Positions 2,552-41,034 of a stretch of DNA of 64,000 nucleotides are shown here, one piece after another. The notes under the pieces were generated by a model. That model ran no database searches. It saw nothing but the letters and a program-made list of their open reading frames with translations, and was not told the origin of the DNA. The stretch is from Sulfuritalea sp. (GTDB lineage: Bacteria; Pseudomonadota; Gammaproteobacteria; Burkholderiales; Rhodocyclaceae). The translations under genes were made by a program, and so were the position numbers. Every line of letters begins with the position of its first letter. Within the stretch, counting starts at the first letter, position 1. The DNA is taken from positions 1-64,000 of the forward strand of contig JAUSCI010000032.1 of assembly GCA_030651305.1 (NCBI GenBank), in the 5' to 3' direction.

Positions 2552-4207
2552 ATGCTCGAAGGCTGTGTGCCCTGGCCCGCCGACCTGGCGGAGCGTTATC
2601 GCAGTCGTGGCTGGTGGGAAGGCATCACCATTCCCGAAATGCTGGCGCGCAGTGCCGCGCGGCATCCTGAAAAGACGGCCCTGGTCAGCGGCGATCTGCG
2701 CCTGCGCTACTGCGACCTCGTGGAAATGTCCGACCGGCTCGCCTGCCGCTTCATCGAGACGGGCATCCGGCCGCTCGACCGCGTGGTGGTGCAACTGCCC
2801 AACGGGCCGGAGTTCGTCCATACCTACTTTGCATTGACGCGCATCGGTGCCGTGCCCGTGACGGCCTTGCGTGCCCACCGACATACGGAAATCCGCCACT
2901 TCGTGCGCGCCTCGGGCGCCACGGCCTACGTGATCCCGGACCGCATCGGCAGCTTCGATTACCGGGCCATGGCGACGGAGGTCCTGGCCGATTTTCCCGC
3001 CTTGCGCGCCGTGTTCGTCGCCGGCGAGCCCGGAGCCGGACAGCAAGACCTGCGCGCAATGATCGCCGCGCCAATGGCGGTCGATGCGGTGCGCGCCGCG
3101 CTGGCAGAGTTTCGCCCCGATCCTGCCGAAGTCGCGACCATGCTGCTCTCGGGCGGCACGACATCCCTTTCCAAGCTGATTCCGCGCACCCATGACGATT
3201 ACGTGCTGAACGCCCGGCTCTGCGGCCGTGCCGGCGGCTTCACTGATGCCACGGTGTTCATGGCCATCCTGCCGCTCGGTCACAACTACAACCTGGCTTC
3301 CCCCGGCATGCTCGGCACCTGGTACCACGGCGGCACAGTGGTGCTGGCGCCGTCCGGGGACGCCGCCGACGTGTTTTCGCTGGTCGAGCGCGAGAAGGTG
3401 ACGGCGATCGCCGCCGTCGTGCCGCTGATCTCCAATTGGCTCAATTCGCCGGTTCCCGACGATTACGATCTGTCGTCCTTGCGGGTGATCCAGAATGGTG
3501 GCGCCCGCCTGGCCCCCGAGCTGCGCACCCGGCTGCGTGCGCGTTTCGGCTGCATGCCGCAGGAAATCTATGGCACCGCCGAGGGCCTGATCAACATGGT
3601 TCCGCTCGATGCGCCGGAGGAGATGGTGCTCAACAGTTCCGGCGCGCCGGTCTGCGAGGACGACGAAATCAAGGTGCTCGACGATGACGGCAACGAGGTG
3701 CCGGATGGCGGCATTGGCGAACTGGTGACGCGAGGTCCGTACACCATCCACGGCTACTACAACGCGCCGGAGAAGAACGCCGAGGCCTTCACGCCCGACG
3801 GTTTCTACCGCATGGGCGACATCGTGCGCAAGGAGGGCCGCTACATTTTCACCGAGGGTCGCAAGAAGGATCTGATCAACCGCGGCGGCGAGAAGATCAG
3901 TTGCGAGGAAGTCGAGAACCTGATCTTCGGTCATCCCAGGGTCAAGGCGGTCACCCTGGTGGCGATGCCCGATCCGGTGTTCGGCGAGAAGGCCTGCGCC
4001 TTCGTCATCACCAGGGATGGACAGGATCTCGAATTCGGCGAACTGATCGCCTTCCTGCGGCGGCAGAACATAGCCAGCTTCAAACTACCCGAGCGGCTGG
4101 AGGTCGTCAGCGAATTTCCTCTCAGTCCGGTCGGCAAGATTCTCAAGCGGGCCCTGCGCGAGACGATTGCCGAAAAGATGGACAAGGAACGGGCCGCGGA
4201 CACATGA
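2552..4207 (+). CDS. Salicylyl-AMP / 2,3-dihydroxybenzoyl-AMP ligase-type acid:CoA ligase
   Basis: This 551-residue ANL-superfamily adenylating enzyme opens with WWEGITIPEML, as do EntE/DhbE and salicylyl-AMP ligases such as SdgA of Streptomyces salicylate degradation. The AMP-binding P-loop (GGTTSLSKLIPRTHDDY), the YGTAEGL motif and the C-terminal catalytic lysine in PVGKILKR are all present. A strong GGAGGAG ribosome site precedes the ATG. The stop overlaps the next start (ATGA), so it is co-translated with the monooxygenase. Known: SdgA adenylates salicylate before CoA transfer. Inference: it activates salicylate or a similar aryl acid. No separate SdgB-like CoA-transfer enzyme adjoins it, so it may also do the thioesterification. 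Confidence 0.82.
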   Translation: MLEGCVPWPADLAERYRSRGWWEGITIPEMLARSAARHPEKTALVSGDLRLRYCDLVEMSDRLACRFIETGIRPLDRVVVQLPNGPEFVHTYFALTRIGAVPVTALRAHRHTEIRHFVRASGATAYVIPDRIGSFDYRAMATEVLADFPALRAVFVAGEPGAGQQDLRAMIAAPMAVDAVRAALAEFRPDPAEVATMLLSGGTTSLSKLIPRTHDDYVLNARLCGRAGGFTDATVFMAILPLGHNYNLASPGMLGTWYHGGTVVLAPSGDAADVFSLVEREKVTAIAAVVPLISNWLNSPVPDDYDLSSLRVIQNGGARLAPELRTRLRARFGCMPQEIYGTAEGLINMVPLDAPEEMVLNSSGAPVCEDDEIKVLDDDGNEVPDGGIGELVTRGPYTIHGYYNAPEKNAEAFTPDGFYRMGDIVRKEGRYIFTEGRKKDLINRGGEKISCEEVENLIFGHPRVKAVTLVAMPDPVFGEKACAFVITRDGQDLEFGELIAFLRRQNIASFKLPERLEVVSEFPLSPVGKILKRALRETIAEKMDKERAADT

Positions 4208-5352
4208 AGATCCGCATCATCGGCGGCGGCCCGGCGGGACTCTATTTCGCGGCCTTGATGAAACGGGACGATCCTGCCCATGACATCGTGGTTTACGAGC
4301 GTGGCCCGCGCGACGCGACCTGGGGCTTCGGCGTGGTCTTCTCCGACCGTGCGCTGGAATTCCTGCGCGCCGACGACGAGGATATGTACCGGCTGCTCAC
4401 GCCGCTGATGGAAACCTGGCCCAATCTCACCATCGTGCACAACGACACGCGCATTCCCATCGCCGGCAACGGCTTCGCCGCCATCGGCCGCCTGGAATTC
4501 CTGAGCCGGCTGTACGCCCATGCCGAGTCCTTGGGCGTCAAGATCGAATTCGATAGCGAGATATCCTCGCTGGACGATGCCGCGAGGCTGGGCGGCGCGG
4601 ACCTGGTGGTCGCCGCCAACGGCGCCTTTTCCTGGGTACGCAACGAGAACGAAGACAAGTTCGGCACAGAAACCGACCTGCGCCGCAACCGTTTCATCTG
4701 GTACGGCACCAGCAAGGTCTTCGACAGCCTGTCCCTGACCTTCCGCACTACCGCACACGGCGTGTTCTGCGCCCACCACTACCGCTACAGCCCACGCATG
4801 AGCACCTTTCTGGTCGAGGTTACGGACGCCACCTGGCGTCGTGCCGGGTTCGCGGACATGAGCGAGGCGGATACGATCCGTCATTGCGAGCAGGTGTTCG
4901 CCGGGGACCTCGACGGCGCGCCGATACTCTCCAACAAGTCCTTCTGGCGCCAGTTTCCGGCGATCTCGAACCGGCAGTGGAGCTTCGGCAATGTCGTGCT
5001 GATGGGCGATGCCTTGCGCACGGCGCACTTTTCGATCGGCTCCGGCACCCGCCTGGCCATGGAGGACGCCATCGCGCTGTGGAAGGCGCTGCGCGATGCG
5101 GGCAGCCTGCCGGAGGCGCTGGCGCTCTACCAGGAGCGCCGTCTGCCGCCGATGAAGAAGATCCTGGACGCGGCTAACGTCAGCATCCGCTGGTACGAGG
5201 AAATGGACGAATTGATGGCCCTGCCGGCCGTCGATTTTGCCTACAGCTACATGACGCGCACCGGACGGGTCAGCCATGCCGAGGTGCGTCGTCGCGATCC
5301 CGCACTCGCCGAAGCCTACGAGAGAAATCATGCGGATATACGGGAGGATTGA
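4204..5352 (+). CDS. Salicylyl-CoA 5-hydroxylase-type FAD monooxygenase
   Basis: The product has 382 residues. It shows an N-terminal FAD fingerprint (IIGGGPAGLYFA) and a second FAD motif (GDALRTAHFSIGSGTRLAME) near residue 265. The RNRFIWYGTSKVFD and STFLVEV stretches are characteristic of the monooxygenase half of 2-aminobenzoyl-CoA monooxygenase/reductase and of stand-alone salicylyl-CoA 5-hydroxylase (SdgC). Here the OYE-like reductase half is absent. The next operon encodes a separate, larger OYE-type protein. Predicted reaction: O2- and NAD(P)H-dependent 5-hydroxylation of an ortho-substituted benzoyl-CoA, giving gentisyl-CoA from salicylyl-CoA. 2-Aminobenzoyl-CoA is an alternative substrate. 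Confidence 0.82.
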   Translation: MKIRIIGGGPAGLYFAALMKRDDPAHDIVVYERGPRDATWGFGVVFSDRALEFLRADDEDMYRLLTPLMETWPNLTIVHNDTRIPIAGNGFAAIGRLEFLSRLYAHAESLGVKIEFDSEISSLDDAARLGGADLVVAANGAFSWVRNENEDKFGTETDLRRNRFIWYGTSKVFDSLSLTFRTTAHGVFCAHHYRYSPRMSTFLVEVTDATWRRAGFADMSEADTIRHCEQVFAGDLDGAPILSNKSFWRQFPAISNRQWSFGNVVLMGDALRTAHFSIGSGTRLAMEDAIALWKALRDAGSLPEALALYQERRLPPMKKILDAANVSIRWYEEMDELMALPAVDFAYSYMTRTGRVSHAEVRRRDPALAEAYERNHADIRED

Positions 5353-6098
5353 TGACCCGCGTGCCGCAGCCATCAACTCAATTGAGTACACCACTTCCAA
5401 TGACCTATGTTCTTGAACCGGAAGCACCCGTAACCATTCCCGTGGAGGGAATTGACGCGCTCTTTCCTGTGCGCCGAATCTACTGTGTCGGACGCAACTA
5501 TGCGGCTCATGCCAGGGAGATGGGTTTTGATCCGACCCGCGAGCCGCCCTTCTTTTTCTGCAAGCCGGCCGATGCCATCGTGGCGGTTGCCCGCGGTCAG
5601 GTCGGAGAAGTGCCGTACCCCTCGCAGACCGGTGAATTTCAGCACGAGATCGAACTGGTGGTGGCGATCGGCAGGGCGGGACGCGACATTCCGATTGAGC
5701 ATGCCAACGAGCATGTATGGGGCTACGCCGTTGGCCTGGACATGACGCGCCGCGACCTGCAGCTAAGACTGCGCGACAAAGGCCGTCCCTGGGAACTGGG
5801 CAAGGCCTTCGATCAATCGGCACCGATCGGCCCGCTGGTGCCGGCATCGCGAATCGGTCACCCGACCGCGGGCGCAATCTGGGTACAGGTCGATGGTCAG
5901 GATCGTCAGCGTAGTGACATCGTGAAGCTGATCTGGTCGGTGCCGGAGGTCATCTCCAACCTCTCAAGCTACTTCGAACTGCGACCCGGAGACCTGATCT
6001 TCACCGGCACCCCTGAAGGTGTCGGTAGCGTGCTGGTCGGCCAAACGATGTCGGGCGGCATCGACGGCCTGGGCGAACTATCGGTCAGGGTCATCTGA
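5352..6098 (+). CDS. Fumarylacetoacetate hydrolase-family hydrolase (fumarylpyruvate/maleylpyruvate hydrolase)
   Basis: This FAH-fold protein of about 248 residues shows the family core [15 protein letters not shown], the acidic metal site [10 protein letters not shown], and GLDMTRRD and FTGTPEGVG motifs. In gentisate pathways this family (NagK-like) splits fumarylpyruvate or maleylpyruvate into pyruvate and fumarate or maleate. I took the ATG at 5352, which overlaps the previous stop (TGATG) and has GGGAGG upstream. An ATG at 5400 gives a length nearer the family norm but has no ribosome site. No maleylpyruvate isomerase gene is nearby, so direct maleylpyruvate hydrolysis is possible. Confidence 0.85.
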
Positions 6099-6112: not shown

Positions 6113-7159
6113 ATGAGCAATGAACTCGGGCGGGTGGAAGACCTGCCGGCCGACTACTACCAGAGCCTGGTGTCGATGAATACCCTGCCACTTTGGCCCT
6201 CGCTGCGTTCGATGCTGCCGCACAACATTCCGGCCCGTCGTACGCAGCCCGTGATGTGGCGCTACGCCGACCTCCGCCCCAATCTGATCCGTGCTGGGGA
6301 ATTGACCCCCATCGAGAAGGCTGAGCGCCGCGTACTCGCGCTGTGCAATCCGGGACTGGGTTTGCAGAACATGCAGGCCACTGCCTCCATCTATATCGGG
6401 ATGCAACTCATCCTGCCCGGGGAAACCGCGCCGAACCACAGGCATACGCCATCGGCTGTCCGCTTCGTGATCGAGGGGCAAGGTGGATTTACCGTGGTAT
6501 CGGGCGAGAAACTGCCGATGGAGAAAGGCGACCTGATTCTCACTCCGCCGGGCCTGTGGCACGAGCATGGTCATGAGGGCTCGGGGCCGGTGGTGTGGCT
6601 CGACGCGCTGGACCTGCCCCTGATTTACGGCATCGATGCTTCCTACTGCATCGAGGGCAAGTCGCAGACCGTGAACCGGCCGCCGGGCAAATGCAATGCG
6701 GAATTCCGTCAGAGCGGAGTCATTCCCTATCGCGCCCTGGATTCGAATTCGACGCGCTATCCCCTGCTGCGTTTTCCGTGGCGCGAGGTCAGGCAATCGT
6801 TGGCTGCACTGGCTGGCGTGACGGCGAAAGGCGAATTGGTCCACCTTGCCTACGTGAACCCGGAAACCGGTCGGGAGTGTCTGCCGACCTTGGGCTTCTC
6901 GGCAATCATGTTGCGTCCCGGCGAGGAAATTCGCCTGCCAAAGCGTTCGGCGTCCGCCGTTCTCCATGGGGTTGAAGGTGCGGGAACTGCCACAATTGAC
7001 CTGGCAGTGCACTCATTTGTGGAAGCCGACACGATTGCCGTGCCGACCCATGCGGAAGTCTCGCTGAGCAATGCGTCAGCGAAGGAGCCGGCCTGTTTGT
7101 TCATGGTCGACGACGCGCCATTGCATCGAAAACTCGGCATCTACGAAGTATTCGATTGA
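6113..7159 (+). CDS. Gentisate 1,2-dioxygenase-type cupin ring-cleavage enzyme
   Basis: The 348-residue double-cupin protein has the length of gentisate 1,2-dioxygenases. The N-terminal cupin holds the iron ligands: [15 protein letters not shown] supplies two histidines, and the third lies in the LWHEHGHEG segment. It follows the FAH hydrolase by 14 bases with AGGGGGAA upstream. Known: the family cleaves gentisate between C1 and C2 to maleylpyruvate; close relatives cleave 5-hydroxyanthranilate. With the upstream ligase and hydroxylase this completes a CoA-dependent salicylate-to-gentisate route once the thioester is hydrolysed. The thioesterase at 12365 is a candidate for that step. Confidence 0.85.
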
Positions 7160-7243: not shown

Positions 7244-7256
7244 GTATACAGTATCC
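7244..7256. promoter_or_regulatory. Candidate GntR (FCD) operator upstream of the OYE operon
   Basis: GTATACAGTATCC is the exact reverse complement of a 13-mer at 53358-53370 in the promoter of the GntR gene. It lies 62 bases before the GTG start at 7318, downstream of a TTGACT hexamer at 7217-7222. Two exact copies of a 13-mer in 64 kb are not expected by chance, and both sit in operon promoters. Which protein binds is inference. Confidence 0.5.
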
Positions 7257-7317: not shown

Positions 7318-9285
7318 GTGACAAGACCAGGCGAAGCAAAGCTCAATTACCTGTTTCAGCCGGGACGCATTGGCAAGTTCGAGGTCAAGAACCGGATCAA
7401 GTACGGCGCCTGTTGCGTCTCGAATTACAACGGCCGCGACGGCACCATCACGCCGCGCGAACTGGCGCGGGTTCGCGTCATCGCCGGCACCGGTTGCGGC
7501 CTGATCACCAACCAGGGGGCTTACCCCGATGCGCTGGGCGAGGGCAAGTCCTACTTCCGCCAGATCGCCATCCACGACGACAAGTTCCTGCCGCAGTTCG
7601 AGATGATCGCCCGTTACATCCACGATGCCGGCGCCATGGCGATGCAGCAGATCCTGCATGCCGGACGCTACGGCGGCATCGACCTCGGCTACTGCGTACA
7701 GCCCTCGGTGGTGCCGCAGACGCTGCCGCATTTCCGTCCGCCGCGCGAACTGACCAAGGACCAGATCAAGGTCGTCATCGCGCAGCACGCCGACGCGGCA
7801 AAGCGTGCAATTCGCGCCGGCTTCGACGCCACCGAGGTCACCAGTTTCATGGGCTATCTGCTGGCCAACTTCAATTCGCGCTTCACCAACCAGCGCACCG
7901 ACGAGTACGGCGGCTCGGTGGAAAACCGCGGCCGCTTCATGCGCGAACTGATCGACGCCATCAAGCAGGCCACGCCCGACAATCCGCTCTCGATACGCCT
8001 CAACGGGGCGGAACTGATGGACCGCTGGGGCGGCAACACCCAGGATGAATCCTTCGAGCTGATGCAGCAGGCCGTCGATTGCGGCGTGGACATGATCTCG
8101 GTGACGGTGGGCTGGCAGGAGGCGCCGGAATCCTCCTTCGGCCGCGACGTCGAGCCGGGCTACTGGAACTTTCTTTCCGCCAAGGCCAAGAAGATGTTTC
8201 CCGACGTGCTGGTGGCATTCGGCAATCGCCTGCCCGATCCGGCCATGGCCAACGAATGCGTACGCGACGAGGTGTTCGACTACTGGGAGGTTTGCCGGCC
8301 GCTGCTGGCCGACCCGGAAATGATTCACAAGGCCGCCGAAGATCGCATGGAGGAAGTCCGTCCCTGCATCGGCTCGCTCAACTGTCTGTCGCGCCTGTTC
8401 CGCGATCTGCCCTACACCTGCACCATGAACCCTATGCTCGGCCACGAGGTCGAGCCCGAATACCACGTCACCGAGGCCACCGAGAAGAAGCGCATCATGA
8501 TCATCGGCGCCGGCCCGGCCGGCATGGAAGCGGCCATCACCGCGCGCAAGCGCGGCCACACGGTGACGGTATTCGACAAGGCCGACAAGATCGGCGGCGC
8601 GCTCGGTGCCTATGCCGCCAACGACTTGGCCCGTCCCGCCGACCTGCAAAGCGTCATCGACTACTACGGCGTGATGGCCAAAAAACTCGGTGTCGAAGTG
8701 CGCCTCAACACCGAGGCCAACGCCAAGTTCATGCGCAGCGTTCTGCACGAGTACGACGTCTGCATCGTCGCCGCCGGATCGCGCACCGACATGGCGGTGT
8801 TCCAGTACCTCGAAGGCGCCGAACTTCTGGTCGATGCGCTGGATGTGGCGCACGGCCGGATGAAGACCGGCAAGCGCGTGGTGATGATCGGTGGTGGCAT
8901 GATCGGCCTGACCATTTCCGAATTCCTCGCCAAGGCCGGGCACGAAGTCACGGTGGTCGAGAAAGAGAAACGCATCGGCGGCGACATCATGCCGACCTTC
9001 AAGTGGCGGCATACCGCCTGGGTCGATGAGTTGGGTATTCAGACCATAACCCTGGCGCAACTGGTCAAGGTCACCAAAGAAGGCGCAACGGTAAGAACGC
9101 CCAAGGGCGAGCAGTTCATCCCCTGCGACAGCGTGATCGTGTCCAGCCCGCGCAAGGCCAACCATGACTTGTTCTACGAGTTCCAGTGGATGGTCGACGA
9201 GTTGCACGGCGGCGGTGACGCCACTGTGCCGCGCGGCCTCGATCAGGCCATCCAGGAAGGCTATCGCCTCGGCGTCAGGATTTGA
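7318..9285 (+). CDS. OYE/2,4-dienoyl-CoA reductase-like FMN-FeS-FAD oxidoreductase with a modified FeS motif
   Basis: The 655-residue protein has the three-part layout of dienoyl-CoA reductase (FadH), trimethylamine dehydrogenase and enoate reductase. There is an FMN TIM barrel (about 1-340; FTNQRTDEYGGSVENRGRF), an FeS motif (350-368), and two Rossmann domains for FAD and NAD(P)H (IIGAGPAGMEAA near 394; MIGGGMIGLTISEFLA near 524). The FeS motif reads CxxSxxCx11C, so the second of four cysteine ligands is Ser353. The start is GTG at 7318 with AGGAGGAAAGG upstream. It heads a seven-gene operon with an aryl-CoA ligase and a Rid protein. Inference: it reduces a cyclic dienoyl- or amino-aryl-CoA. 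The substrate is unknown. Confidence 0.85.
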   Translation: MTRPGEAKLNYLFQPGRIGKFEVKNRIKYGACCVSNYNGRDGTITPRELARVRVIAGTGCGLITNQGAYPDALGEGKSYFRQIAIHDDKFLPQFEMIARYIHDAGAMAMQQILHAGRYGGIDLGYCVQPSVVPQTLPHFRPPRELTKDQIKVVIAQHADAAKRAIRAGFDATEVTSFMGYLLANFNSRFTNQRTDEYGGSVENRGRFMRELIDAIKQATPDNPLSIRLNGAELMDRWGGNTQDESFELMQQAVDCGVDMISVTVGWQEAPESSFGRDVEPGYWNFLSAKAKKMFPDVLVAFGNRLPDPAMANECVRDEVFDYWEVCRPLLADPEMIHKAAEDRMEEVRPCIGSLNCLSRLFRDLPYTCTMNPMLGHEVEPEYHVTEATEKKRIMIIGAGPAGMEAAITARKRGHTVTVFDKADKIGGALGAYAANDLARPADLQSVIDYYGVMAKKLGVEVRLNTEANAKFMRSVLHEYDVCIVAAGSRTDMAVFQYLEGAELLVDALDVAHGRMKTGKRVVMIGGGMIGLTISEFLAKAGHEVTVVEKEKRIGGDIMPTFKWRHTAWVDELGIQTITLAQLVKVTKEGATVRTPKGEQFIPCDSVIVSSPRKANHDLFYEFQWMVDELHGGGDATVPRGLDQAIQEGYRLGVRI

Positions 9286-9327
9286 GCTGGTAGCCCCCGC
9301 TTGCCGACGCATTTAAGGAGTGATGGT

Positions 9328-10956
9328 ATGACCTATAGCGCCCATATCGATACTTTTACCCGCGACAACCTGCCGCCGCGGGAACAGCAGCCCGAGTTTC
9401 TGTTCGACCTGCCGGAGCTCAAGTTTCCCGAGCGACTCAACTGTGCCTGGCCCTTGCTCGACCAGCACGTTGCGGAAGGGCGCGGCGAACGCGTCTGCAT
9501 CCAGGCGCCAAACCTGCGCTGGACTTACGCCGACCTGCAGGAGCGTGCCAACCGCATCGCCAATTTGCTGGTGAAGGATCTCGGCCTGGTGCCGGGCAAC
9601 CGCGTGCTGCTGCGCGCGCCCAACAATCCGATGATGGCAGCCTGCTGGTTCGCGGTGATGAAGGCGGGGGGCGTCGCGGTGGCGACCATGCCGCTGCTGC
9701 GCGCCAAGGAACTCAAGCACGTGATCACCAAGGCGCGCGTGACGCATGCGCTTTGCGACCTGCGTTTGGCCGGGGAACTGAAACTCGCCGCGGCGGAATG
9801 CGCTGATCTGCGGCACATCCGCTATTTCAACGACATCTCAGCGGACGGACTCGACGCGGCGATGGCGAAGCATTCCGCAAGTTTCGACAACGTCGACACG
9901 GCGCGCGATGATACCTGCCTGCTGGCCTTCACCTCCGGCACCACCGGGCAGCCCAAGGCCACCATGCATTTTCATCGCGATGTCATGGCGTCCTGCGTTT
10001 GCTGGCCGCCGCATGTCCTGCGCGCGGTGGCGGACGATATCTTCATGGGCACGCCGCCACTGGCGTTTACCTTCGGCCTCGGCGGGCTGCTGCTGTTCCC
10101 GCTCAGCATCGGGGCGTCGACGGTATTGCTGGAGCAGGGCGCACCCCAGGATCTGGTTGATGCGATTGCGAAATACAAGGCCACCGTGCTGTTTACCGCG
10201 CCCACTTCTTATCGCGCCATCGCGCCGATTGCCGGGCCGCTGCGCAACAGCAGTTTGCGCAAGTGCGTGTCGGCCGGTGAAGCCTTGCCGGCGGCGACAC
10301 GAGCCTTGTGGAAAGAGGCAACGGGCATCGAGATGATCGACGGCATCGGCGCCACCGAACTGATGCACATCTTCATCTCAGCCGACGAGGCGCATGCGCT
10401 TCCCGGCGCCACCGGTACCGTGGTTCCCGGCTATGTCGCCTGCGTAATGGACGACAACGGCAAGCCGACGCCCGTCGGCGAGGTCGGCAATCTGGCGGTC
10501 AAGGGTCCGACCGGTTGCCGCTACCTGGCCGATGATCGCCAGGCCAAGTATGTCAAGGATGGCTGGAACTACACCGGCGATGCTTATTCGCTCGATGCCG
10601 AAGGCTACTTTCATTACCACTCCCGCACTGATGACATGATCATCTCTGCGGGTTACAACATCGCCGGGCCCGAAGTCGAGGATGCCCTGCTGCGGCACCC
10701 CAAGGTCGCCGAATGCGGCGTCGTCGGCACGGCCGACGAGGAGCGCGGCCAGATCGTCAAGGCCATCGTCGTCCTGCGTCCCGGCAATGAGCCGACGCCC
10801 GCGGTGGCGAAGGAGTTGCAGGATTTCGTCAAGCAGAGCATCGCTCCCTACAAGTATCCGCGAAGCATAGAGTTCGTCACCGCGTTGCCGCGTACCGAAA
10901 CCGGCAAGCTGCAACGCTTCAGGCTGCGTCAGACCAATCGAGGAGATCATCAATGA
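9328..10956 (+). CDS. Benzoate/2-aminobenzoate-CoA ligase-family protein
   Basis: This 542-residue ANL ligase belongs to the benzoate-CoA ligase branch by its FTSGTTGQPKATMHFHRD P-loop, IDGIGATELMHIF, YTGDAYSLDAEGYFHYHSR, and the C-terminal LPRTETGKLQRF lysine motif. The IGATELMHIF stretch is typical of benzoate, 2-aminobenzoate and 4-hydroxybenzoate ligases. The start ATG at 9328 has AAGGAG eight bases upstream. The stop overlaps the Rid start (ATGA). Ligases of this type sit beside Rid proteins in 2-aminobenzoate (abm) gene sets, which favours 2-aminobenzoate. Benzoate or salicylate cannot be excluded. Confidence 0.85.
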   Translation: MTYSAHIDTFTRDNLPPREQQPEFLFDLPELKFPERLNCAWPLLDQHVAEGRGERVCIQAPNLRWTYADLQERANRIANLLVKDLGLVPGNRVLLRAPNNPMMAACWFAVMKAGGVAVATMPLLRAKELKHVITKARVTHALCDLRLAGELKLAAAECADLRHIRYFNDISADGLDAAMAKHSASFDNVDTARDDTCLLAFTSGTTGQPKATMHFHRDVMASCVCWPPHVLRAVADDIFMGTPPLAFTFGLGGLLLFPLSIGASTVLLEQGAPQDLVDAIAKYKATVLFTAPTSYRAIAPIAGPLRNSSLRKCVSAGEALPAATRALWKEATGIEMIDGIGATELMHIFISADEAHALPGATGTVVPGYVACVMDDNGKPTPVGEVGNLAVKGPTGCRYLADDRQAKYVKDGWNYTGDAYSLDAEGYFHYHSRTDDMIISAGYNIAGPEVEDALLRHPKVAECGVVGTADEERGQIVKAIVVLRPGNEPTPAVAKELQDFVKQSIAPYKYPRSIEFVTALPRTETGKLQRFRLRQTNRGDHQ

Positions 10957-11351
10957 AGAAATTGCGGCCACCGGACTGGATGGAGGCCAAGGGTTATAGC
11001 CACGGCCTGGTCGCCCCGCGCGGGCAACTGGTATTTGTCGCCGGGCAGGTCGGATGGGACGGGCAGCGCAAGTTTCACGCTGACGACCTGGTCGGTCAGG
11101 CGGCGCAGGCGCTGAAGAACATCGTGGCGATTCTGGCGGAGGCCGGCGCGCGCCCGGAGCATATCGTGCGCATGACCTGGTACCTCGGCGACAAGGACGA
11201 GTATGACGTATCGCAAAAGGAACTGGGCCGTGTTTTCCGCGAAATCATCGGCACCTATAACGCAGTGATGACGGCGGTGCAGGTCGGCGGCTTCGTCGAG
11301 GAAGGCGCCAAGGTCGAAATTGAGGTTACGGCGGTGATTCCGGACGCATGA
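10953..11351 (+). CDS. RidA/YjgF-family protein
   Basis: This 132-residue member of the Rid family contains VFVAGQVGWDGQ, QAAQALKNIVAILAEAG and the closing VEIEVTAVIP strand. The arginine that archetypal RidA uses for imine hydrolysis (in P-A-R) aligns with methionine in YNAVMTAVQV. It therefore belongs to a divergent Rid subgroup rather than classical RidA, and deaminase activity should not be assumed. It is translationally coupled to both neighbours by ATGA overlaps. Its position after an aryl-CoA ligase suggests it handles an enamine, imine or enoyl-CoA-derived intermediate of that pathway. Confidence 0.85.
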   Translation: MKKLRPPDWMEAKGYSHGLVAPRGQLVFVAGQVGWDGQRKFHADDLVGQAAQALKNIVAILAEAGARPEHIVRMTWYLGDKDEYDVSQKELGRVFREIIGTYNAVMTAVQVGGFVEEGAKVEIEVTAVIPDA

Positions 11352-11734
11352 GGCTGGACGAGTCGACCTGGCGGCAAGTGCTTGCGGTATTGCCTGCCGC
11401 TTGCGGCAAGGTCAGTGACGCCCTGGCGGTGGCTTTTGTCGATGCCGACGATTTTGCGTCGAAGAGCGGCTCGGCGTGGCTATGGTGGCCGGACAGCGGC
11501 CAGCAGAGCGGACGTTGCGACTTCGATGGCGGCTTTCCGCCTGAGTGGGGCATGCTGCTGGTGATGAGCGAGTCCGCGCTCGATACCTTGTGCGTTGAGG
11601 GTGACGCATGCCTGGCGGGCCTCGTGCGCCGGGTGCAGATCAGGCCTTTCCTGTTGCAGCAGATGGACATTCTGGAAGCCGCCGGCCTCGACGATTTCAT
11701 CGAGTCGCTTGAACTTGCCACGCCCAAACATTGA
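11348..11734 (+). CDS. Small protein of unknown function, paralogue A
   Basis: The 128-residue product starts at the ATG overlapping the Rid stop. I do not recognise a named family. The C-terminal half (WGMLLVMSESALDTL to DILEAAGLDDFIESLEL) resembles that of the next gene product, which has LLVADEEAMATMF to AQLQDAGYEDFLDSLGL at the same spacing. The two therefore look like diverged tandem paralogues. The general shape is faintly reminiscent of SCP2-like folds, but that is weak. Its place inside the ligase/OYE operon suggests an accessory role in that pathway. Confidence 0.75.
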   Translation: MRLDESTWRQVLAVLPAACGKVSDALAVAFVDADDFASKSGSAWLWWPDSGQQSGRCDFDGGFPPEWGMLLVMSESALDTLCVEGDACLAGLVRRVQIRPFLLQQMDILEAAGLDDFIESLELATPKH

Positions 11735-12198
11735 TGACGACAGCCGCGGATCAAACATTCGGCGAGTTAGCTCCATGGCAGCGCATGCTGGACCGCTATC
11801 GCGAGTTGTTCGTCGAAATGCAGCAGGGCTCGCGCATCGGCTTCGTTTCACGCGAGGCCTCGGGCATTCTTCCCGGCAAGCGGCTGGAAGGCGTGCAAGT
11901 CGCGACAGAAGTATCAATGCTGGTATGGCAACTGGAAAGCGCCGGCATGTCGGCGCATATCGAGCGTTTCGCCGGCATGTCCTCGACCAAAGTGGATCTG
12001 TTGCTGGTGGCGGACGAGGAGGCCATGGCGACCATGTTTGACCAGATGGAGGGCGACATGCCGACAGCCATCAAGCGCCTGATCCGGCGCGGTCGCATGA
12101 TGTTCTTCGTATTCAGGAACAAGGCCCAGTTGCAGGATGCCGGCTACGAGGACTTTCTCGATTCGCTCGGGCTGGCTTTCCTTGGAGCCTGCCGATGA
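11734..12198 (+). CDS. Small protein of unknown function, paralogue B
   Basis: This is a protein of about 154 residues. The ATG at 11734 overlaps the upstream TGA, so I prefer it over the TTG one codon earlier. The N-terminal part (WQRMLDRYRELFVEMQQG) is probably helical. The C-terminal part resembles the preceding gene product, including the GYEDFLDSLGL motif near the end. There is no signal peptide or membrane segment. It is co-translated with the following zinc-ribbon gene. Function unknown. Confidence 0.75.
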   Translation: MTTAADQTFGELAPWQRMLDRYRELFVEMQQGSRIGFVSREASGILPGKRLEGVQVATEVSMLVWQLESAGMSAHIERFAGMSSTKVDLLLVADEEAMATMFDQMEGDMPTAIKRLIRRGRMMFFVFRNKAQLQDAGYEDFLDSLGLAFLGACR

Positions 12199-12389
12199 TC
12201 TTCACCAATCCGCGTGGTGCGCCGGAACTGGCTTGCGATGAATGCGGCTGCCGCTGGGTCGACCGCACCAACGGCAACCACTGCTATGAATGCGGCAACG
12301 AAATTACGGCCGATTCAATCGCCGAATTTCAGCGCGCCCTGCTGGAGTTTGCTGCGAACGGTCTTCAGCCGGGCCGCACCACCAGGTAA
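12195..12389 (+). CDS. Small zinc-ribbon protein
   Basis: The 64-residue protein has two CxxC knuckles: CDECGCRWVDR near residue 14 and CYECG near residue 31. Together they form a compact zinc or FeS-binding site of rubredoxin/zinc-ribbon type. The ATG overlaps the previous stop. It is the last gene of the 7318-12389 operon, and its 3' end overlaps the convergent thioesterase gene by 25 bases. It could be an electron-transfer or metal-binding accessory of the OYE-type enzyme; no family name is certain. Confidence 0.7.
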   Translation: MIFTNPRGAPELACDECGCRWVDRTNGNHCYECGNEITADSIAEFQRALLEFAANGLQPGRTTR

Positions 12390-12793
12390 CGTTCCAGCCG
12401 GGTTCGCATATCGTCCGGAAACGGCACGGAACGCCCGGTTTTCAGCGAGGCCAGTACGATGGTCAGTGTGGCTTGAACGCGGGTCTCGCCAGCGTACTTT
12501 GCGGTCACGTTCAGTTCCAGCGAACTTGTGCCAATTCGTTTGATCGACAGCGACAGGCGCAACATTTCGCCGACCTTGCTCGGCGAAAGAAACCGGCAGA
12601 CGATGCTGCCCATCGGCACCCCCATGCCCTGCTCGACATGGAATTTCGCGAAGTCGATGCCGAGGCCCTGATTGAACCAGTCTTCGACCAGTTCGTTGAA
12701 AAGCACAAAATACTGGGGATAGAAAACAATGCCGGCTGGATCGCAATGATGGAAACGAATCAGCTTGTCGCATTCGAAAGGGGCTGCGGCCAC
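12365..12793 (-). CDS. 4-Hydroxybenzoyl-CoA thioesterase-type acyl-CoA thioesterase
   Basis: The 142-residue hot-dog-fold protein carries the 4HBT active-site signature FHHCDPAGIVFYPQYF, with the catalytic aspartate in HCDPAG. Start is GTG at 12793 with a good GGAGGA site eight bases upstream. Members of this group hydrolyse aryl-CoA thioesters. In this setting gentisyl-CoA, or a stalled aminoaryl-CoA, is the likely substrate, which would link the 2552 and 7318 operons. It is convergent with the zinc-ribbon gene and separated from trpB2 by a terminator. Confidence 0.85.
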   Translation of the reverse strand: MAAAPFECDKLIRFHHCDPAGIVFYPQYFVLFNELVEDWFNQGLGIDFAKFHVEQGMGVPMGSIVCRFLSPSKVGEMLRLSLSIKRIGTSSLELNVTAKYAGETRVQATLTIVLASLKTGRSVPFPDDMRTRLERYLVVRPG

Positions 12794-12892: not shown

Positions 12893-14275
12893 CTAAGCAG
12901 CTTTCGGCGGCCAGTCGACCTGCGGCAGATTCTTCAGCGATGCCTGAATGGCCTCGGCCGGATATTCGAAGTCCGAGAGCTTGCCGGCGAAATAATCCTC
13001 GTAAGCGCTCATGTCGAAATGGCCGTGGCCCGAAAGATTGAAGAACAGCGTCTTCGGCTCGCCGCTGGCCTTGCAGCGCAGCGCTTCGTCGATACAGGCA
13101 CGAATGCCGTGGGCCGATTCAGGCGCCGGGATGATGCCCTCGGCCCGCGCGAACATCACGCCAGCTTCGAAGGTGGCGGTCTGATGCACGGCCACCGCTT
13201 CGATCAGTTTCTCGTGATAGAGCTGCGAAATCAGCGGCGAATCGCCGTGGTAGCGCAGGCCGCCGGCATGGATGCCGGGGGGCATGAAGTCATGGCCCAA
13301 GGTGTACATCTTCATTATCGGCGTGTAGCCGGAGGCGTCGCCGTAGTCATAGGCATACACGCCCTTGGTCAGCGTCGGGCAGGAGGCCGGCTCGACCGCG
13401 ACAAAGCGGATCTTCTGCGCGCGCTTGTCGCCCGCTGCCGCATCGGCGAGGAAGGGGAAGCTGACGCCGGCGAAATTGCAACCGCCGCCGCAGGGGGCGA
13501 AGATCATGTCCGGATATTCACCGAATTTCTCGAACTGCTTCTTGGCTTCGAGACCGATCACGGTCTGGTGCAGCAGCACGTGGTTGAGCACCGAACCCAG
13601 CGCGTACTTGCTGCCCGGATTCGTCACCACGGCTTCAATGGCTTCGGAAATCGCAAAGCCGAGGCTGCCCGGGTTGTCCGGATCGGTAGCCAGGAGGTCG
13701 CGACCGGTCTTGGTCCGATTGGACGGGCTGGCAACCACATCGCCGCCCCAGGTCTGCATCATCAGGCGACGGTAGGGCTTCTGGTTGTAGCTTATCTTGA
13801 CCATGAAAATTTCGACCGGCAGACCGAATATCTGGCCGGCGAAGGCCAGCGATGAACCCCACTGTCCGGCGCCGGTTTCGGTCACCAGACGCTTGGTGCC
13901 GGCGATCTTGTTCAGATAGGCCTGCGGCACGGCCGAATTCGGCTTGTGCGAACCGGCGGGAGAAACGCCTTCGTACTTGTAGAAAATCTTGGCCGGCGTG
14001 CCCAGCATCTTCTCCAGCCTTTCGGCGCGGCATAGCGGGCTCGGACGCCACAGCGCGTAGATCTTGCGCACTTCTTCGGGAATCGCGATCCAGCGCTCGG
14101 CAGACATCTCCTGCTCCAGCACCGGGCCGGGGAAGATCGCCAGCATCTTGTCCGGCGTCACGGGATTGCCGTCCGGCCCCAGGGGCGGGAAAGGCGGATT
14201 CTTGAGATCGGCGGCGATGTTGTACCAGTGAGTCGGGATTTCGCTTTCGTCAAGCACGATGCGGGTCTGGCTCAT
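12893..14275 (-). CDS. trpB2: TrpB2-type tryptophan synthase beta chain
   Basis: The 460-residue PLP enzyme is longer than classical TrpB and shows the TrpB2 N-terminal region ([12 protein letters not shown]). The PLP lysine is in [19 protein letters not shown]. The phosphate-binding loop reads CGGGCNFAG, where the family normally has GGGSN, so the serine is replaced by cysteine. AGGAGA lies upstream of the ATG. It is monocistronic, with its own terminator. Known: TrpB2 condenses indole with serine without TrpA. In this island it may scavenge indole into tryptophan. A GntR-box-like sequence lies in its promoter region. Confidence 0.9.
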
Positions 14276-14404: not shown

Positions 14405-14424
14405 GGATACGGTACACTGTATGC
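14405..14424. promoter_or_regulatory. Possible GntR box between trpB2 and xdhC
   Basis: GGATACGGTACACTGTATGC contains GGATAC exactly and a GTACACTGTATGC segment matching 10 of 13 positions of the GGATACTGTATAC sequence found upstream of the GntR gene and the OYE operon. It lies 130 bases before trpB2 and 117 bases before xdhC, so it could serve either divergent unit. The remaining 14276-14540 DNA shows no gene. Confidence 0.3.
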
Positions 14425-14540: not shown

Positions 14541-14864
14541 GTGCAGACAGACACCGAGTCTCTTTTTGAAACCCTGTGCAGATGGCGGGCAGAAGGCAAG
14601 TCAGCGGCGCTCGCTACCGTGGTCAGCACCTGGGGTTCCTCGCCGCGCCCCGAGGGCAGCCACCTTGCGGTCGATGAAGCCGGACACTTTGTCGGATCCG
14701 TCTCCGGCGGTTGTATCGAGGGTGCCGTGATCGATGCCGCCGCACAGGTCATGGCCTCTGGCCGCCCGCAACTGCTGGAGTTCGGCGTCAGTGACGAGCA
14801 GGCCTGGCAGGTCGGGCTTGCCTGCGGTGGCCGTGTGCAGGTATTCGTGGAGCCAGTCGAATGA
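14541..14864 (+). CDS. XdhC/CoxI-family protein, N-terminal half
   Basis: The 107-residue protein contains the XdhC N-terminal domain only: ATVVSTWGSSPRPEGS, GSVSGGCIEGAV and VGLACGG. XdhC proteins hold the molybdenum cofactor, protect it and promote its sulfuration before insertion into xanthine-dehydrogenase-family enzymes. The Rossmann half is encoded by the next gene with an ATGA overlap, so XdhC is split. Start is GTG at 14541. It opens a six-gene maturation operon that would serve the molybdenum hydroxylase at 38601-42358. Confidence 0.85.
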   Translation: MQTDTESLFETLCRWRAEGKSAALATVVSTWGSSPRPEGSHLAVDEAGHFVGSVSGGCIEGAVIDAAAQVMASGRPQLLEFGVSDEQAWQVGLACGGRVQVFVEPVE

Positions 14865-15568
14865 AGCCTGCGGTTTTGACGAGGATTGTCGAGGCGCAGA
14901 ACCGGCGTCGTGCGCTCGTCGCCGTTACACGCCTCGGCGATGGCGAGCAGTGCCTGGTCGATGCCGAAACCATTAACGGTGAATTGGCGCTATCGCCGGC
15001 GCAGATAACCGAGGCCAGAGATCTCCTGAATTCGGGGCGCAGCGCATTGCTATCCAGCGCGCTTTCCGGCGCAGAAGGCTTGTTTGCCCGCGCCTATGTG
15101 CCTTCGCCGCGTCTGCTGATTGTCGGCGCCGTGCATATCGCCCAAGCGCTGGCGCCGATGGCCGCCGCCGCCGGTTTCGAGGTCGTGGTGATCGATCCGC
15201 GTGGCGCTTTCGCCACGGCTGAGCGATTTCCCGGCGTGGCATTGAGCGATGAATGGCCGGACGAAACGCTGGCACGTCTGGGTCTGGACGAAGCGACGGC
15301 ACTTGTGGCCTTGTCCCATGATCCGAAGCTGGATGATCCGGCCCTTGAACTGGCGCTGCCCAGCCCGGTGTTTTACATCGGCGCGCTGGGCAGTCGGCGG
15401 ACCCACGAAAAGCGGCTGGAGCGACTCCGTGCGGCCGGCCTGGCAGAACTGACAGGACGCATCCATTCGCCGATCGGCCTCGATCTGGGCGGCCGCTCGC
15501 CCGCGGAAATTGCGGTGGCCATTCTTGCCGAGGTCATCCAGGTCCGCTATCGCGGCGAGCGCACGTGA
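14861..15568 (+). CDS. xdhC: XdhC-family protein, Rossmann C-terminal half
   Basis: This 235-residue protein contains the XdhC C-terminal Rossmann domain (LLIVGAVHIAQALAPMA, VVIDPRGAFA) and YIGALGSRRTHEKRLERL. The tail HSPIGLDLGGRSPAEIAVAI is diagnostic of XdhC. Normally this is fused to the short domain encoded just upstream. The stop overlaps the next GTG start. It is predicted to act with the cysteine desulfurase at 17181 in making the sulfurated cofactor. Confidence 0.88.
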   Translation: MKPAVLTRIVEAQNRRRALVAVTRLGDGEQCLVDAETINGELALSPAQITEARDLLNSGRSALLSSALSGAEGLFARAYVPSPRLLIVGAVHIAQALAPMAAAAGFEVVVIDPRGAFATAERFPGVALSDEWPDETLARLGLDEATALVALSHDPKLDDPALELALPSPVFYIGALGSRRTHEKRLERLRAAGLAELTGRIHSPIGLDLGGRSPAEIAVAILAEVIQVRYRGERT

Positions 15569-17184
15569 TTTTTGGCGAATTTCCCCTGGCGCAATGCGAA
15601 GGGCTGCTGCTGGCCCACAGCCTGCGTCTGCCGGACCAGATCATGAAGAAAGGCCGCCGTCTCACCAGCGCCGACTTTCCGATGCTCTCGGCGGCGGGCA
15701 TCACGCGGGTGCATGGCGCTCGGCTGGAGCCCGGCGATGTCGATGAAAACGCGGCTGCCGGCTCCGTCGCGGAGGCCTTGAGCGGAGCAGGTATCGGGGT
15801 ACGCGCGGCGCATGCCGGCCGCTGCAATCTTTTCGCAACAGGGCGCGGCCTGATGACGGTTGAGCCCGACCTCATCAATCGCATCAACCGGATCGACGAG
15901 TCGGTCACGGTCGCCACCCTGCCATCGCTGTCGGCGGTCAGGGGCGGCGCCGTCGTCGCCACGGTGAAGATCATTCCGCTGGCCGTCGGCCGCACGCTGG
16001 TCGCTGCCTGCGTTGCACAGGCAGGGCAGGGCGCTGCCCTGAGTGTGCTGCCCTTCCAGCCGCAACGCGCGGCCCTCATCGTCACCGAACAGCCCGGCGA
16101 CCCGCAACGAAATTACATCGCTGCAGTGAACAGCAGTCGCCGCCGTCTGGCCGATCTAGGCAGTCATCTTGGCCTGGTGCAGCGCTGCGGGCATCGTACC
16201 GAGGCAGTTATGGCTGCGCTGCGGGAGGCGATTGCGGCTGGCTGCTCAATGATACTGATCGCCGGCACCACGGTGCCCAAAGACCGGGCGGATACCGTTC
16301 CCGCCGGCATCGTCGCGGCGGGAGGCGAGATTGTTCATTTCGGCATGCCGGTGGAGCCCGGCAACATGCTGTTATTCGCACGCATTGGTTCGGTACCCGT
16401 CATCATCCTGCCGGGCTGCGCCCGCTCGCGGCGAAGCAATGGCCTCGACTGGGTGTTGCAGCGGATGCTGGCGGGGTTGCCGATGGCGGCCGAACAGATC
16501 ATGGCCATGGGCGTCGGCGGCCTGATCCGCAGCCCTCTGGAAGCCGATGATGACGAGAAGGCTTCCGAGACGGAACCGGTCAGGGCGCCCGTCGGTCGTC
16601 GGGTCGCGGCGCTGATACTGGCGGCCGGCAGCAGTCGGCGCATGGGTAACGGCAACAAGTTGCTGCAGGAAGCAGGCGGCGTGCCGTTGGTGCGGCGCGT
16701 GGCAAATGCGGCGCTGGCTTCGCGCTGCACCTCGGTGCTGGTGGTCACCGGCTTTGCGGCAGAGGAAGTGCAAACCTGTCTGGCCGGTCTGGAGGTGAAT
16801 TTCGCGCACAACCCGGAGTACGAAACCGGCATGGCGTCGTCGCTGCGCAGTGGACTCGCCGCCCTGCCGGCCGATGTCGACGCGGCCGTGGTGCTGCTGG
16901 CCGACATGCCCTGGATAGACGGCGGTCATGTCGATCGCCTGCTCGCCGCCTTCGATCCGGAGCAGCCGAAAATCGTCGCCCCGGTCAAGGACGGTCGACG
17001 CGGCAACCCGATACTCTGGCCGCGTTGCTTCTTCGCCGAAATGAAGGCGGTGGAAGGCGATGTCGGCGCTCGCGATGTGTTGCGCCGACATGCGGAGCAG
17101 ATCGAATGTGTCGCGTTCGATGACGATGCGATTTTCGCTGATGTCGATACGCCGGAAGCACTGACCGGATTGGCGGTGAGATGA
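15565..17184 (+). CDS. MoeA/MogA-like molybdopterin-binding domain fused to MocA-type cytidylyltransferase
   Basis: The fusion has 539 residues. The N-terminal part (about 1-335) has a molybdopterin-binding fold (DFPMLSAAGITRVHGARL; ILIAGTTVPKD). The C-terminal part (about 345-539) is an NTP transferase with the signature LILAAGSSRRMGNGNKLL and the acidic LADMPW motif, as in MocA. Known: MocA transfers CMP to Mo-molybdopterin, giving the MCD cofactor used by molybdenum hydroxylases. This fusion type is usually found beside xdhC and xanthine-dehydrogenase-family genes. GTG start, overlapping the xdhC stop. Confidence 0.88.
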   Translation: MIFGEFPLAQCEGLLLAHSLRLPDQIMKKGRRLTSADFPMLSAAGITRVHGARLEPGDVDENAAAGSVAEALSGAGIGVRAAHAGRCNLFATGRGLMTVEPDLINRINRIDESVTVATLPSLSAVRGGAVVATVKIIPLAVGRTLVAACVAQAGQGAALSVLPFQPQRAALIVTEQPGDPQRNYIAAVNSSRRRLADLGSHLGLVQRCGHRTEAVMAALREAIAAGCSMILIAGTTVPKDRADTVPAGIVAAGGEIVHFGMPVEPGNMLLFARIGSVPVIILPGCARSRRSNGLDWVLQRMLAGLPMAAEQIMAMGVGGLIRSPLEADDDEKASETEPVRAPVGRRVAALILAAGSSRRMGNGNKLLQEAGGVPLVRRVANAALASRCTSVLVVTGFAAEEVQTCLAGLEVNFAHNPEYETGMASSLRSGLAALPADVDAAVVLLADMPWIDGGHVDRLLAAFDPEQPKIVAPVKDGRRGNPILWPRCFFAEMKAVEGDVGARDVLRRHAEQIECVAFDDDAIFADVDTPEALTGLAVR

Positions 17185-23733: not shown

Positions 23734-23790
23734 GGCGGGATCCCGTGTGTGTATGCGTTGTGCTGGCAAGCCGATTGCGTGACCTGCCGG

Positions 23791-23820
23791 CACGGGTCTG
23801 CCCTGTCGGGCAGATCCGTG
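23791..23820 (-). terminator. Stem-loop after isocitrate dehydrogenase
   Basis: Two 13-base arms (CACGGGTCTGCCC and GGGCAGATCCGTG) pair at 12 of 13 positions around a four-base loop. The hairpin lies 12 bases beyond the isocitrate dehydrogenase stop on the minus strand. There is no long T-run, so termination may be partial. Confidence 0.55.
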
Positions 23821-37207: not shown

Positions 37208-37271
37208 GGTGTCTCCTCCTTGATTGATGATGATCAAAAAACCGTTCGCCGCATGAGATGGATAGCGTGTC

Positions 37272-38465: not shown

Positions 38466-38478
38466 GAGCAAGACCTTT

Positions 38479-38583
38479 TAGCCACAGAGGACACAGAGGG
38501 CACAGAGAAAAGCAGGAACAGGAAGGCTTGCTGCCTTACGCGCGCTTTTGCCTCCTCTGTGATCTCTGTGTCCTCTGTGGCTA
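38479..38583. repeat. Palindromic mini-element with CACAGAGG repeats (copy 1)
   Basis: Arms built from TAGCCACAGAGGACACAGAG and its near-complement (ending TCCTCTGTGGCTA) flank a 50-base centre. The whole 105-bp element fills the gap between the molybdenum-hydroxylase large-subunit gene and the CoA-transferase gene. A related element is at 44007-44083. It would form a long hairpin in the operon mRNA. Confidence 0.8.
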
Positions 38584-38600
38584 GAAGTGTGGTTTTCATG

Positions 38601-41015: not shown

Positions 41016-41034
41016 GGCGATGTTCCTTAAGTCC

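Follow-up and report, generated by a model that had tools for sequence, protein, structure and literature searches.

We found, in a 64,000-nucleotide stretch of a Sulfuritalea sp. contig (JAUSCI010000032.1, positions 1 to 64,000; the window), a six-gene operon that is headed by a flavoenzyme of the Old Yellow Enzyme (OYE) type and that probably encodes the anaerobic conversion of 2-aminobenzoyl-CoA to benzoyl-CoA, a funnel step into the common benzoate route. The observations behind this reading are the gene set, a shared operator, synteny, co-occurrence across genomes, homology and conserved residues. The placement of the operon in the indoleacetate (iaa)/2-aminobenzoyl-CoA pathway is well supported, the case for 2-aminobenzoyl-CoA as the substrate is moderate, and reductive deamination is proposed as the reaction by analogy with a characterized relative.

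According to the available passages of the papers cited here and below, the iaa pathway ends in 2-aminobenzoyl-CoA (PMC9613470; likewise PMC12409115), and anaerobic Aromatoleum evansii converts 2-aminobenzoate to benzoyl-CoA via a ligase and a 2-aminobenzoyl-CoA reductase (PMC4539516). The passages of the open-access literature that we searched held no gene assignment for this reductive deamination: a legend in PMC8271443 names the 2-aminobenzoyl-CoA reductase step, with no gene in that passage, and PMC9765128, on A. aromaticum EbN1, contains none of the word stems aminobenz-, anthranil- and indoleacet-. The operon puts forward one candidate enzyme for this known chemical end step of anaerobic 2-aminobenzoate and auxin degradation; the shared operator ties the candidate reductase to auxin genes, and Aromatoleum species carry orthologues.

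Operon architecture and the NCR-like enzyme

The operon comprises six open reading frames (ORFs) on the plus strand (7318-12389), which encode the OYE-type enzyme (655 aa; the OYE), an aryl-CoA ligase (542 aa), a Rid-family protein (132 aa), two small proteins, p4 (128 aa) and p5 (about 154 aa), and a zinc-ribbon-like protein (64 aa). They are joined by ATGA overlaps at 10953, 11348 and 12195 and a TGATG junction at 11732-11736, and the OYE and ligase genes are 42 bases apart. An earlier note on this DNA, made from its letters alone, had described a tightly spaced operon of these families with ATGA overlaps and a 13-mer common to its promoter and that of an iaa-type operon, all of which held. 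Its count of seven genes had to be rejected: there is no seventh ORF on the plus strand, and the next ORF (12365-12793) encodes a 4HBT thioesterase on the opposite strand. Pfam placed the OYE in Oxidored_FMN and Pyr_redox_2, the ligase in AMP-binding and Rid in Ribonuc_L-PSP, and gave no match over cut-off for p4, p5 or the CxxC...CxxC protein. Because gene set, order and operator recur across dozens of genomes, many of them close relatives and non-independent, we regard the operon as more than a chance arrangement.

The OYE has the full-length three-domain architecture of the type III aryl-CoA reductases (NCR family). Its best match in the Protein Data Bank (PDB) was 2-naphthoyl-CoA reductase (NCR, 6qkg; 377.5 bits vs 223.8 for FadH), to which it is 32% identical. 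Comparison of the predicted folds, coarse at a model pLDDT of 71.8 (below 50 in the Fe-S linker, 351-384), also ranked NCR first (E 3.4e-49 vs 1.1e-38 for FadH). The FMN/Fe-S/FAD domains given in the earlier note were confirmed, with one correction: the Fe-S motif reads C350-x2-S353-x2-C356-x11-C368, in which three cysteines are accompanied by a serine in place of the fourth. Among 71 aligned rows the Ser353 column held Ser in 65, Cys in 4, Ala in 1 and Gln in 1; the four-cysteine rows come from Desulfosporosinus and Peptococcaceae, both Firmicutes (L094, L095, L097 and L102; L-numbers are labels of fetched loci). Known type III aryl-CoA reductases conserve four cysteines (PMC12093976), and the window enzyme departs from this [4Fe-4S] pattern of the NCR family.

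Residues with assigned roles in NCR (PMC6502838) were located by hand counting on the printed NCR alignment. NCR Y197, Y82, N247, T280 and G282 align with Y180, Y79, N229, T263 and G265, which are invariant in the rows with a letter (Y180 in 71/71, Y79 in 68/68), while NCR H284 is replaced by Q267 (71/71 rows), Y320 by N303 (63/71) and V38 by C33 (63/64 letters). The second Rossmann motif, GGNEIS in NCR, is an intact GxGxxG in 66/71 rows, with an acidic residue ending the strand in all 71, which suggests NADH as the electron donor. The 2-aminobenzoyl-CoA reductase activity of extracts was reportedly measured with Ti(III). NCR accepts only low-potential donors (PMC6502838).

In the mechanism that we propose, 2-aminobenzoyl-CoA would be supplied by thiolysis at the end of the iaa pathway and, from free 2-aminobenzoate, by the operon's ligase. 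Electrons would enter the OYE at its FAD domain, perhaps from NADH, and would be relayed to FMN by the unusual iron-sulphur cluster of three cysteines and a serine. Hydride from FMN would attack carbon 2 of the ring, which is beta to the thioester; the thioester would stabilise the anionic intermediate, Tyr180 (NCR Tyr197) would protonate the amino group, ammonia would depart, and the product benzoyl-CoA would enter the bzd/bcr ring reductase. NCR defluorinates 6-F-2-naphthoyl-CoA, which has been explained by hydride transfer to the fluorinated carbon (PMC6502838). Hydride substitution at carbon 2, on this precedent, is the best-supported explanation. We infer the substrate, the hydride transfer, the loss of ammonia, the electron donor and any helper role of p4/p5, the zinc ribbon and Rid.

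The closest solved relative of the operon's ligase was anthranilate-CoA ligase (PDB 4wv3, 307.7 bits), followed by benzoate-CoA ligase (241.8), in line with the benzoate/2-aminobenzoate type that had been assigned to it; its score against TIGR02262 was 357.1 bits (cut-off 375.25). The Rid protein proved as divergent as had been claimed (PF01042, 76 bits): Met occupies the RidA arginine column in 39/39 rows. We take that arginine to be catalytic. Imine hydrolysis by Rid is therefore not supported, and a canonical imine deaminase was rejected. The small proteins p4 and p5 are indeed homologous (hhalign probability 99.2%), and Pfam and PDB searches with them returned nothing usable. The p5 AlphaFold model (pLDDT 86.8) gave one Foldseek match with E below 1e-3, a weak one to SCP-2 (E 5.7e-4, TM 0.35/0.42, rmsd 7.6; TM 0.31-0.45 and rmsd 6-8 across SCP-2 entries). 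Help in ammonia removal from Rid and the small proteins, as the earlier note had proposed, is not supported.

Relatives, shared operator and indoleacetate genes

A scan of 84,980 species genomes with two short OYE peptide patterns, whose counts are a lower bound and cannot prove absence, returned 77 loci: 76 orthologues (64-98% identity; some fragments, a few on a shared contig) and one distant paralogue. It replaced a search with p5 only, which had found 4/300 genomes of the order including our own. Among named relatives the closest, at 95-98% OYE identity, are Rhodocyclales/Sulfuritalea and similar genomes from metagenomes. Seven Aromatoleum species are also represented, A. evansii KB740 by two loci, as are Desulfosporosinus and a Peptococcaceae strain, both strict anaerobes. 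A tree was built from 70 loci and the window, leaving out L101, L106, L107, L110 (short) and the fragments L111 and L112. Because outgroup placement was unstable (out_L013, with length 10, landed within the ingroup) and the root unsure, we used the split alone between clade I (46 loci plus the window) and clade II (the remaining 24, including the Desulfosporosinus and Peptococcaceae strain enzymes). Within about 7 kb of the OYE, clade I (n=46) had Rid in 32 loci, p4 in 27, p5 in 31, the zinc ribbon in 21, a benzoate/anthranilate-type ligase in 21 and a salicylate-type ligase in 15, and clade II (n=24) had p5 in 23, the zinc ribbon in 21, a salicylate-type ligase in 11, and Rid and a benzoate/anthranilate-type ligase in 1 each; p4 and p5 cross-match in these counts, and with many contigs cut the fractions are minima. 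In two loci (L081, L091) the module lies on contigs binned as Telmatospirillum and Acidobacteria, by horizontal transfer or misbinning.

The 13-mer operator GTATACAGTATCC stands in exact form ahead of the OYE gene and, on the opposite strand, ahead of GntR, the first gene of the iaa operon. In the whole genome (3.9 Mb, 82 contigs), a search allowing at most one mismatch to GTATACAGTATMC found three places, all without mismatch: the OYE, the iaa operon and a permease operon. The third copy (L114, G000:C43:8519-8531) is a perfect palindrome except for its central base, the most symmetric of the three, and precedes ORFs that read as LivH/LivM-type permeases. The iaa operon contains a binding protein and, among the genes scanned, no permease; the LivH/LivM-type permease is perhaps the uptake system for it. 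The own-genome count alone is not decisive, because a backward-pattern control matched once per strand vs twice for the real pattern. A chance origin was instead rejected on recurrence at the same promoters in relatives. Across the 76 OYE loci (1.2 Mb) there were 64 sites with at most one mismatch to GTATACNGTATMC, 63 of which lie no more than 250 bases ahead of the start of a called gene. The nearest gene was the OYE for 32 sites, the GntR/iaa operon for 10, the TrpB2/XdhC region for 12 and an AndR-like regulator gene just upstream of the OYE for 9 (eight loci, seven of Aromatoleum plus L064); the last site, in L053, lies at a contig end just behind the OYE. A 350-base search found the operator before the OYE in 32/68 loci. 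Within 2 kb upstream of the OYE it was present, with at most one mismatch, in 38/43 testable clade I loci vs 0/23 in clade II, many of the operator-bearing loci being non-independent, from close relatives. The 13-mer is the mark of a conserved regulon that takes in OYE and iaa operon.

Synteny led to the same pathway. In L049, L057, L063 and L066 the OYE follows bzd reductase genes, a large flavoprotein-like gene and what we take to be bzdW-, bzdX- and bzdY-type genes, and is followed by GntR, thiolase, ligase, hydantoinase pair, acyl-CoA dehydrogenase and mutase genes. L049 is the complete genome of Candidatus Desulfobacillus denitrificans, where four bzd-type genes exceeded NCBIfam cut-offs and the dienoyl-CoA hydratase model fell below its own (165 of 292.5 bits). 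L055 shows the same bzd-OYE-iaa order with ligase and Rid after the OYE, and L047, L051, L061 and L075 keep parts of it. The Aromatoleum loci, including the two in A. evansii, have the order OYE, Rid, p4, MeaB, XdhC, MobA; an AndR-like regulator precedes the OYE in 7/8, L065 being the exception, and most have pad genes upstream. In L064, a related locus scanned for these genes, the AndR model scored 187 bits (cut-off 350) and PadG, PadH and PadI exceeded theirs.

Co-occurrence was examined in two samples. Among 50 named genomes chosen from the OYE loci, an iaa hydantoinase at >=69% identity was present in 25/26 clade I genomes (all 25 at >=75%, the miss being L074) and 7/24 of clade II. The possibility that the operon occurs mainly in genomes without iaa genes, which would have spoken against the proposal, accordingly did not hold for clade I and came nearer to the truth for clade II. 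A benzoyl-CoA reductase gene over cut-off was found in 39/50 genomes (bzdN 22, BcrC 17; clade I 23/26, clade II 16/24). The second sample took 199 genomes from the A. anaerobium family, with a hydantoinase threshold of >=70% identity and E up to 1e-230, at which broken gene copies may escape. Here 28 genomes carried the OYE, 25 the hydantoinase and 23 both (hydantoinase in 23/28 OYE carriers vs 2/171 non-carriers); bzdN was over cut-off in 33 genomes (24/28 carriers vs 9/171 non-carriers). Fisher tests on this sample ignore kinship and are descriptive only. The proposed link to indoleacetate and 2-aminobenzoyl-CoA therefore stood on operator, bzd-OYE-iaa synteny, co-occurrence, anthranilate-type ligase and NCR relationship, without the ammonia-removing helpers.

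These data also bear on whether the OYE reduces another iaa intermediate, such as 2-aminocinnamoyl-CoA, or serves as a detoxifying enoyl-CoA reductase. We consider this very unlikely, even though its second-best solved relative is a 2,4-dienoyl-CoA reductase: 17/24 tested clade II genomes lacked the iaa hydantoinase at >=69%, the OYE has neither the GWH histidine nor the four Fe-S cysteines of FadH, the former a residue common to FadH and NCR, and what follows 2-aminocinnamoyl-CoA has been described as beta-oxidation (PMC8360864).

Alternative substrates and routes

The most substantial competitor, which may well be correct though we would not bet on it at even odds, holds that the OYE is a general reductase of ortho-substituted benzoyl-CoAs that first dehydroxylated salicylyl-CoA to benzoyl-CoA, with 2-aminobenzoyl-CoA either a later acquisition or an additional substrate of clade I. 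It can hold together with reductive deamination in clade I. From gene context, clade II may act on salicylyl-CoA: a salicylate-type ligase lies nearby in 11/24 of its loci, overlapping or sitting a few dozen bases before the OYE in L082, L083 and L087, and the window's own salicylate-type ligase is closest to a salicylate-AMP ligase. Because clade II is without operator (0/23), has Rid in 1/24 and has that ligase nearby in 11/24, the ancestral substrate may be another aryl-CoA. However, operator and synteny indicate an amino compound for clade I, including the window, and the ligase alone does not separate the clades, since 14-15 clade I loci also have a salicylate-type ligase and monooxygenase upstream.

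A dearomatising route, in which benzoyl-CoA and the ATP-dependent ring reductase are bypassed, seems to us unlikely. Such a route would call for Rid only if there is an imine to hydrolyse, and this would account for its presence in clade I and near absence from clade II. NCR, the nearest enzyme, does dearomatise (PMC6502838), not every clade I genome has a benzoyl-CoA reductase over cut-off, and the OYE directly follows the bzdY-type gene in L049, L055, L057, L058, L059, L061, L063 and L066 (clade I) and in L079 (clade II). The Met that replaces the RidA arginine runs counter to it, and the reaction would need about -0.45 V or lower (a rough estimate from heats of formation that we assume), which NADH could not supply, yet 66/71 rows keep the NAD-type motif intact. 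Moreover, PMC4539516 gives benzoyl-CoA as the product in A. evansii, an orthologue carrier.

Rid itself occurs more widely. It was found elsewhere in 10/12 tested clade I genomes without Rid beside the OYE (exceptions L053 and L063) and in 0/2 of clade II; L065, whose Rid adjoins the OYE, was among the genomes tested. In four of five stretches around a distant Rid (L119-L122) it follows ligase and thioesterase genes beside a monooxygenase/reductase-like gene, read in L119 as a fused 760-aa ORF, and the fifth (L123, contig cut) has the order ligase, Rid, p4. Ligase and Rid look like a general 2-aminobenzoyl-CoA kit common to aerobic and anaerobic routes. These stretches favour an aerobic route of the abm type, in which ligase, Rid and OYE would act with a monooxygenase on 2-aminobenzoyl-CoA under oxygen, as does L074, where a ligase gene and a member of the bifunctional salicylyl-CoA 5-hydroxylase/oxidoreductase family (1296 bits, cut-off 1078) come after OYE-p5-ZnR. 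We nevertheless hold it to be quite improbable for the operon. The OYE was rejected as the abm reductase half, which is 28-32% identical to it and lacks the FAD/NAD and Fe-S parts (123 bits against NF006101 positions 396-736, cut-off 1078); monooxygenase and OYE are separate genes in the window rather than fused, that monooxygenase is paired with a gentisate-dioxygenase-like gene, and in relatives the OYE adjoins anaerobic bzd and iaa genes. By gene content, the abm route would explain ligase and Rid and not the OYE, and the alternative raised in the earlier note survives to that extent. L074 itself seems to combine an aerobic enzyme with a presumably anaerobic one in a single gene row.

Several observations weigh against reductive deamination of 2-aminobenzoyl-CoA by the OYE. 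With the conserved His of NCR and FadH changed to Gln267, the carbonyl-binding Y320 to Asn303, and one Fe-S cysteine missing, NCR chemistry is not simply transferable. The features of clade II set out above (operator 0/23, Rid 1/24, salicylate-type ligase nearby in 11/24) may point to another aryl-CoA as ancestral substrate. The iaa model strain A. aromaticum has no record among the loci of the two-pattern scan, and L065 (A. anaerobium) has neither operator nor AndR-like gene before its OYE. Co-occurrence is incomplete as well: 5/28 OYE carriers lack the iaa hydantoinase at 70%, 2/25 hydantoinase carriers and nine bzdN carriers lack the OYE, and L052, L054 and L105 (3/26 clade I) have no bzdN or BcrC over cut-off. 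Nor does the Sulfuritalea genome itself have a bzdN or BcrC match over the curated cut-offs (scores of 98 and 281 bits). It does contain, on contig C59 (L118:6162-10525), a benzoyl-CoA-reductase-like set of four genes, named by reading, whose BcrC-like member scores the 281 bits. This set, below the BcrC and BzdN cut-offs, is possibly another reductase subtype.

Neighbouring genes and comparison with known systems

Coordinates of the operon, its operators and the neighbouring genes in the window (G+C 61%) are collected in the table.

Table. Features of the window and the basis of their assignment.
Feature	Position	Strand	Basis
DhbE-like salicylate-type ligase	2552..4207	+	PDB 5wm2 salicylate-AMP ligase, 518.6 bits; 2,3-dihydroxybenzoate-AMP ligase second, 517.1
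FAD monooxygenase like N-terminal half of salicylyl-CoA 5-hydroxylase/oxidoreductase	4201..5352	+	NF006101, 402 bits, positions 1-385 of 768, below cut-off 1078
Putative fumarylpyruvate-hydrolase-type (FAH) protein	5349..6098	+	ORF named by reading
Gentisate 1,2-dioxygenase-like protein	6113..7159	+	TIGR02272, 257 bits, below cut-off 442
Operator GTATACAGTATCC, near-palindrome GTATACNGTATMC, before OYE gene	7244..7256	+	exact match
NCR-like OYE with FMN barrel, Fe-S linker and FAD/NAD domains; candidate 2-aminobenzoyl-CoA reductase	7318..9285	+	Pfam/NCBIfam; PDB 6qkg NCR; fold match
Aryl-CoA ligase, probably 2-aminobenzoate-CoA ligase	9328..10956	+	PDB 4wv3; TIGR02262
Divergent Rid-family protein, RidA Arg to Met	10953..11351	+	PF01042, 76 bits; alignment
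p4, small protein, p5 homologue	11348..11734	+	hhalign
p5, small protein, weakly SCP-2-like	11734..12198 (TTG 11731 alternative start)	+	AlphaFold, Foldseek
Zinc-ribbon-like protein, 64 aa, CxxCxC...CxxC	12195..12389	+	sequence motif; near p5 in both clades
4HBT thioesterase, convergent with operon	12365..12793	-	PF13279, 45.5 bits
PLP enzyme, TrpB2 type by reading	12893..14275	-	PF00291
Degenerate operator between TrpB2 and XdhC/MobA genes	14405..14417	.	1 mismatch to GTATACNGTATMC
Two XdhC-like genes and a MobA-like gene, for maturation of molybdenum hydroxylases	14541..17184	+	PF02625 for first; other two by reading
3-Hydroxyacyl-CoA dehydrogenase/enoyl-CoA hydratase fusion	21721..23793	-	family scan
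iaa-type operon	36056..53315	-	family content
Operator GTATACAGTATCC before GntR gene opening iaa operon	53358..53370	-	exact match
MeaB-type mutase chaperone, divergent from GntR gene	53412..54494	+	PF03308, 257 bits

The iaa-type operon encodes a binding protein, a CoA transferase, a Mo hydroxylase (3 genes), a B12 mutase (2), an acyl-CoA dehydrogenase, a hydantoinase-type pair (2), a CoA ligase, a thiolase and a GntR/FCD regulator. Most of its matches in NCBIfam are to equivalogs of other enzymes and fall short of the cut-off. Its content also agrees with what we take to be the iaa gene list of 2012. We assigned it to the iaa pathway by family content, in comparison with the gene cluster in a legend of PMC8360864. 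The MeaB and XdhC/MobA genes belong to types from which maturation of this pathway's two cofactor enzymes would be expected, and the XdhC/XdhC/MobA order is kept in relatives. The operator copy in the TrpB2/XdhC region recurs in 12 relatives, which would place a tryptophan-synthase-like gene, whose product we presume to be TrpB2, in this regulon. Directly before the OYE operon, the genes at 2552-7159 resemble a CoA-dependent salicylate-to-gentisate operon. Orthologues (67-76%) of the dehydrogenase/hydratase fusion lie near the OYE in four relatives (L074, L077, L092 and L093).

If the proposed reaction is correct, NCR-like OYEs would include enzymes that remove ring substituents, an activity for which the passages available otherwise describe only NCR acting on a fluorinated analogue. 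Clade II would in that case be a candidate for anaerobic salicylate dehydroxylation. The OYE resembles NCR in its full-length three-domain FMN/Fe-S/FAD fold, a Tyr aligned with NCR's proton donor, thioester-binding residues and aryl-CoA context, and NCR's capacity to replace a ring fluorine by hydride (PMC6502838) is the precedent for the proposed reaction. At 32% identity it differs in having Ser (65/71), Gln, Asn and GxGxxG where NCR has the fourth Fe-S Cys, His284, Tyr320 and GGNEIS, and NCR reduces the ring, whereas the OYE would carry out a substitution. FadH, the 2,4-dienoyl-CoA reductase, shares the domain order (1ps9 was the best fold match after the NCR entries) but has the GWH histidine in place of Gln267 and the lower score given above. 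For the operon's ligase the closest solved counterpart is the anthranilate-CoA ligase 4wv3, by sequence comparison. The abm system (abmA and abmG, PMC12521323) has the same presumed substrate and the ligase and Rid families in common with the operon; it differs in its oxygen-dependent monooxygenase, which is fused to a short OYE half. In Desulfatiglans anilini a putative 4-aminobenzoyl-CoA reductase would likewise deaminate an aminobenzoyl-CoA reductively (PMC7500099); that candidate is annotated as, and suggested to be, an enzyme of the 4-hydroxybenzoyl-CoA reductase type, and it would act on the para isomer, whereas the OYE would act at carbon 2.

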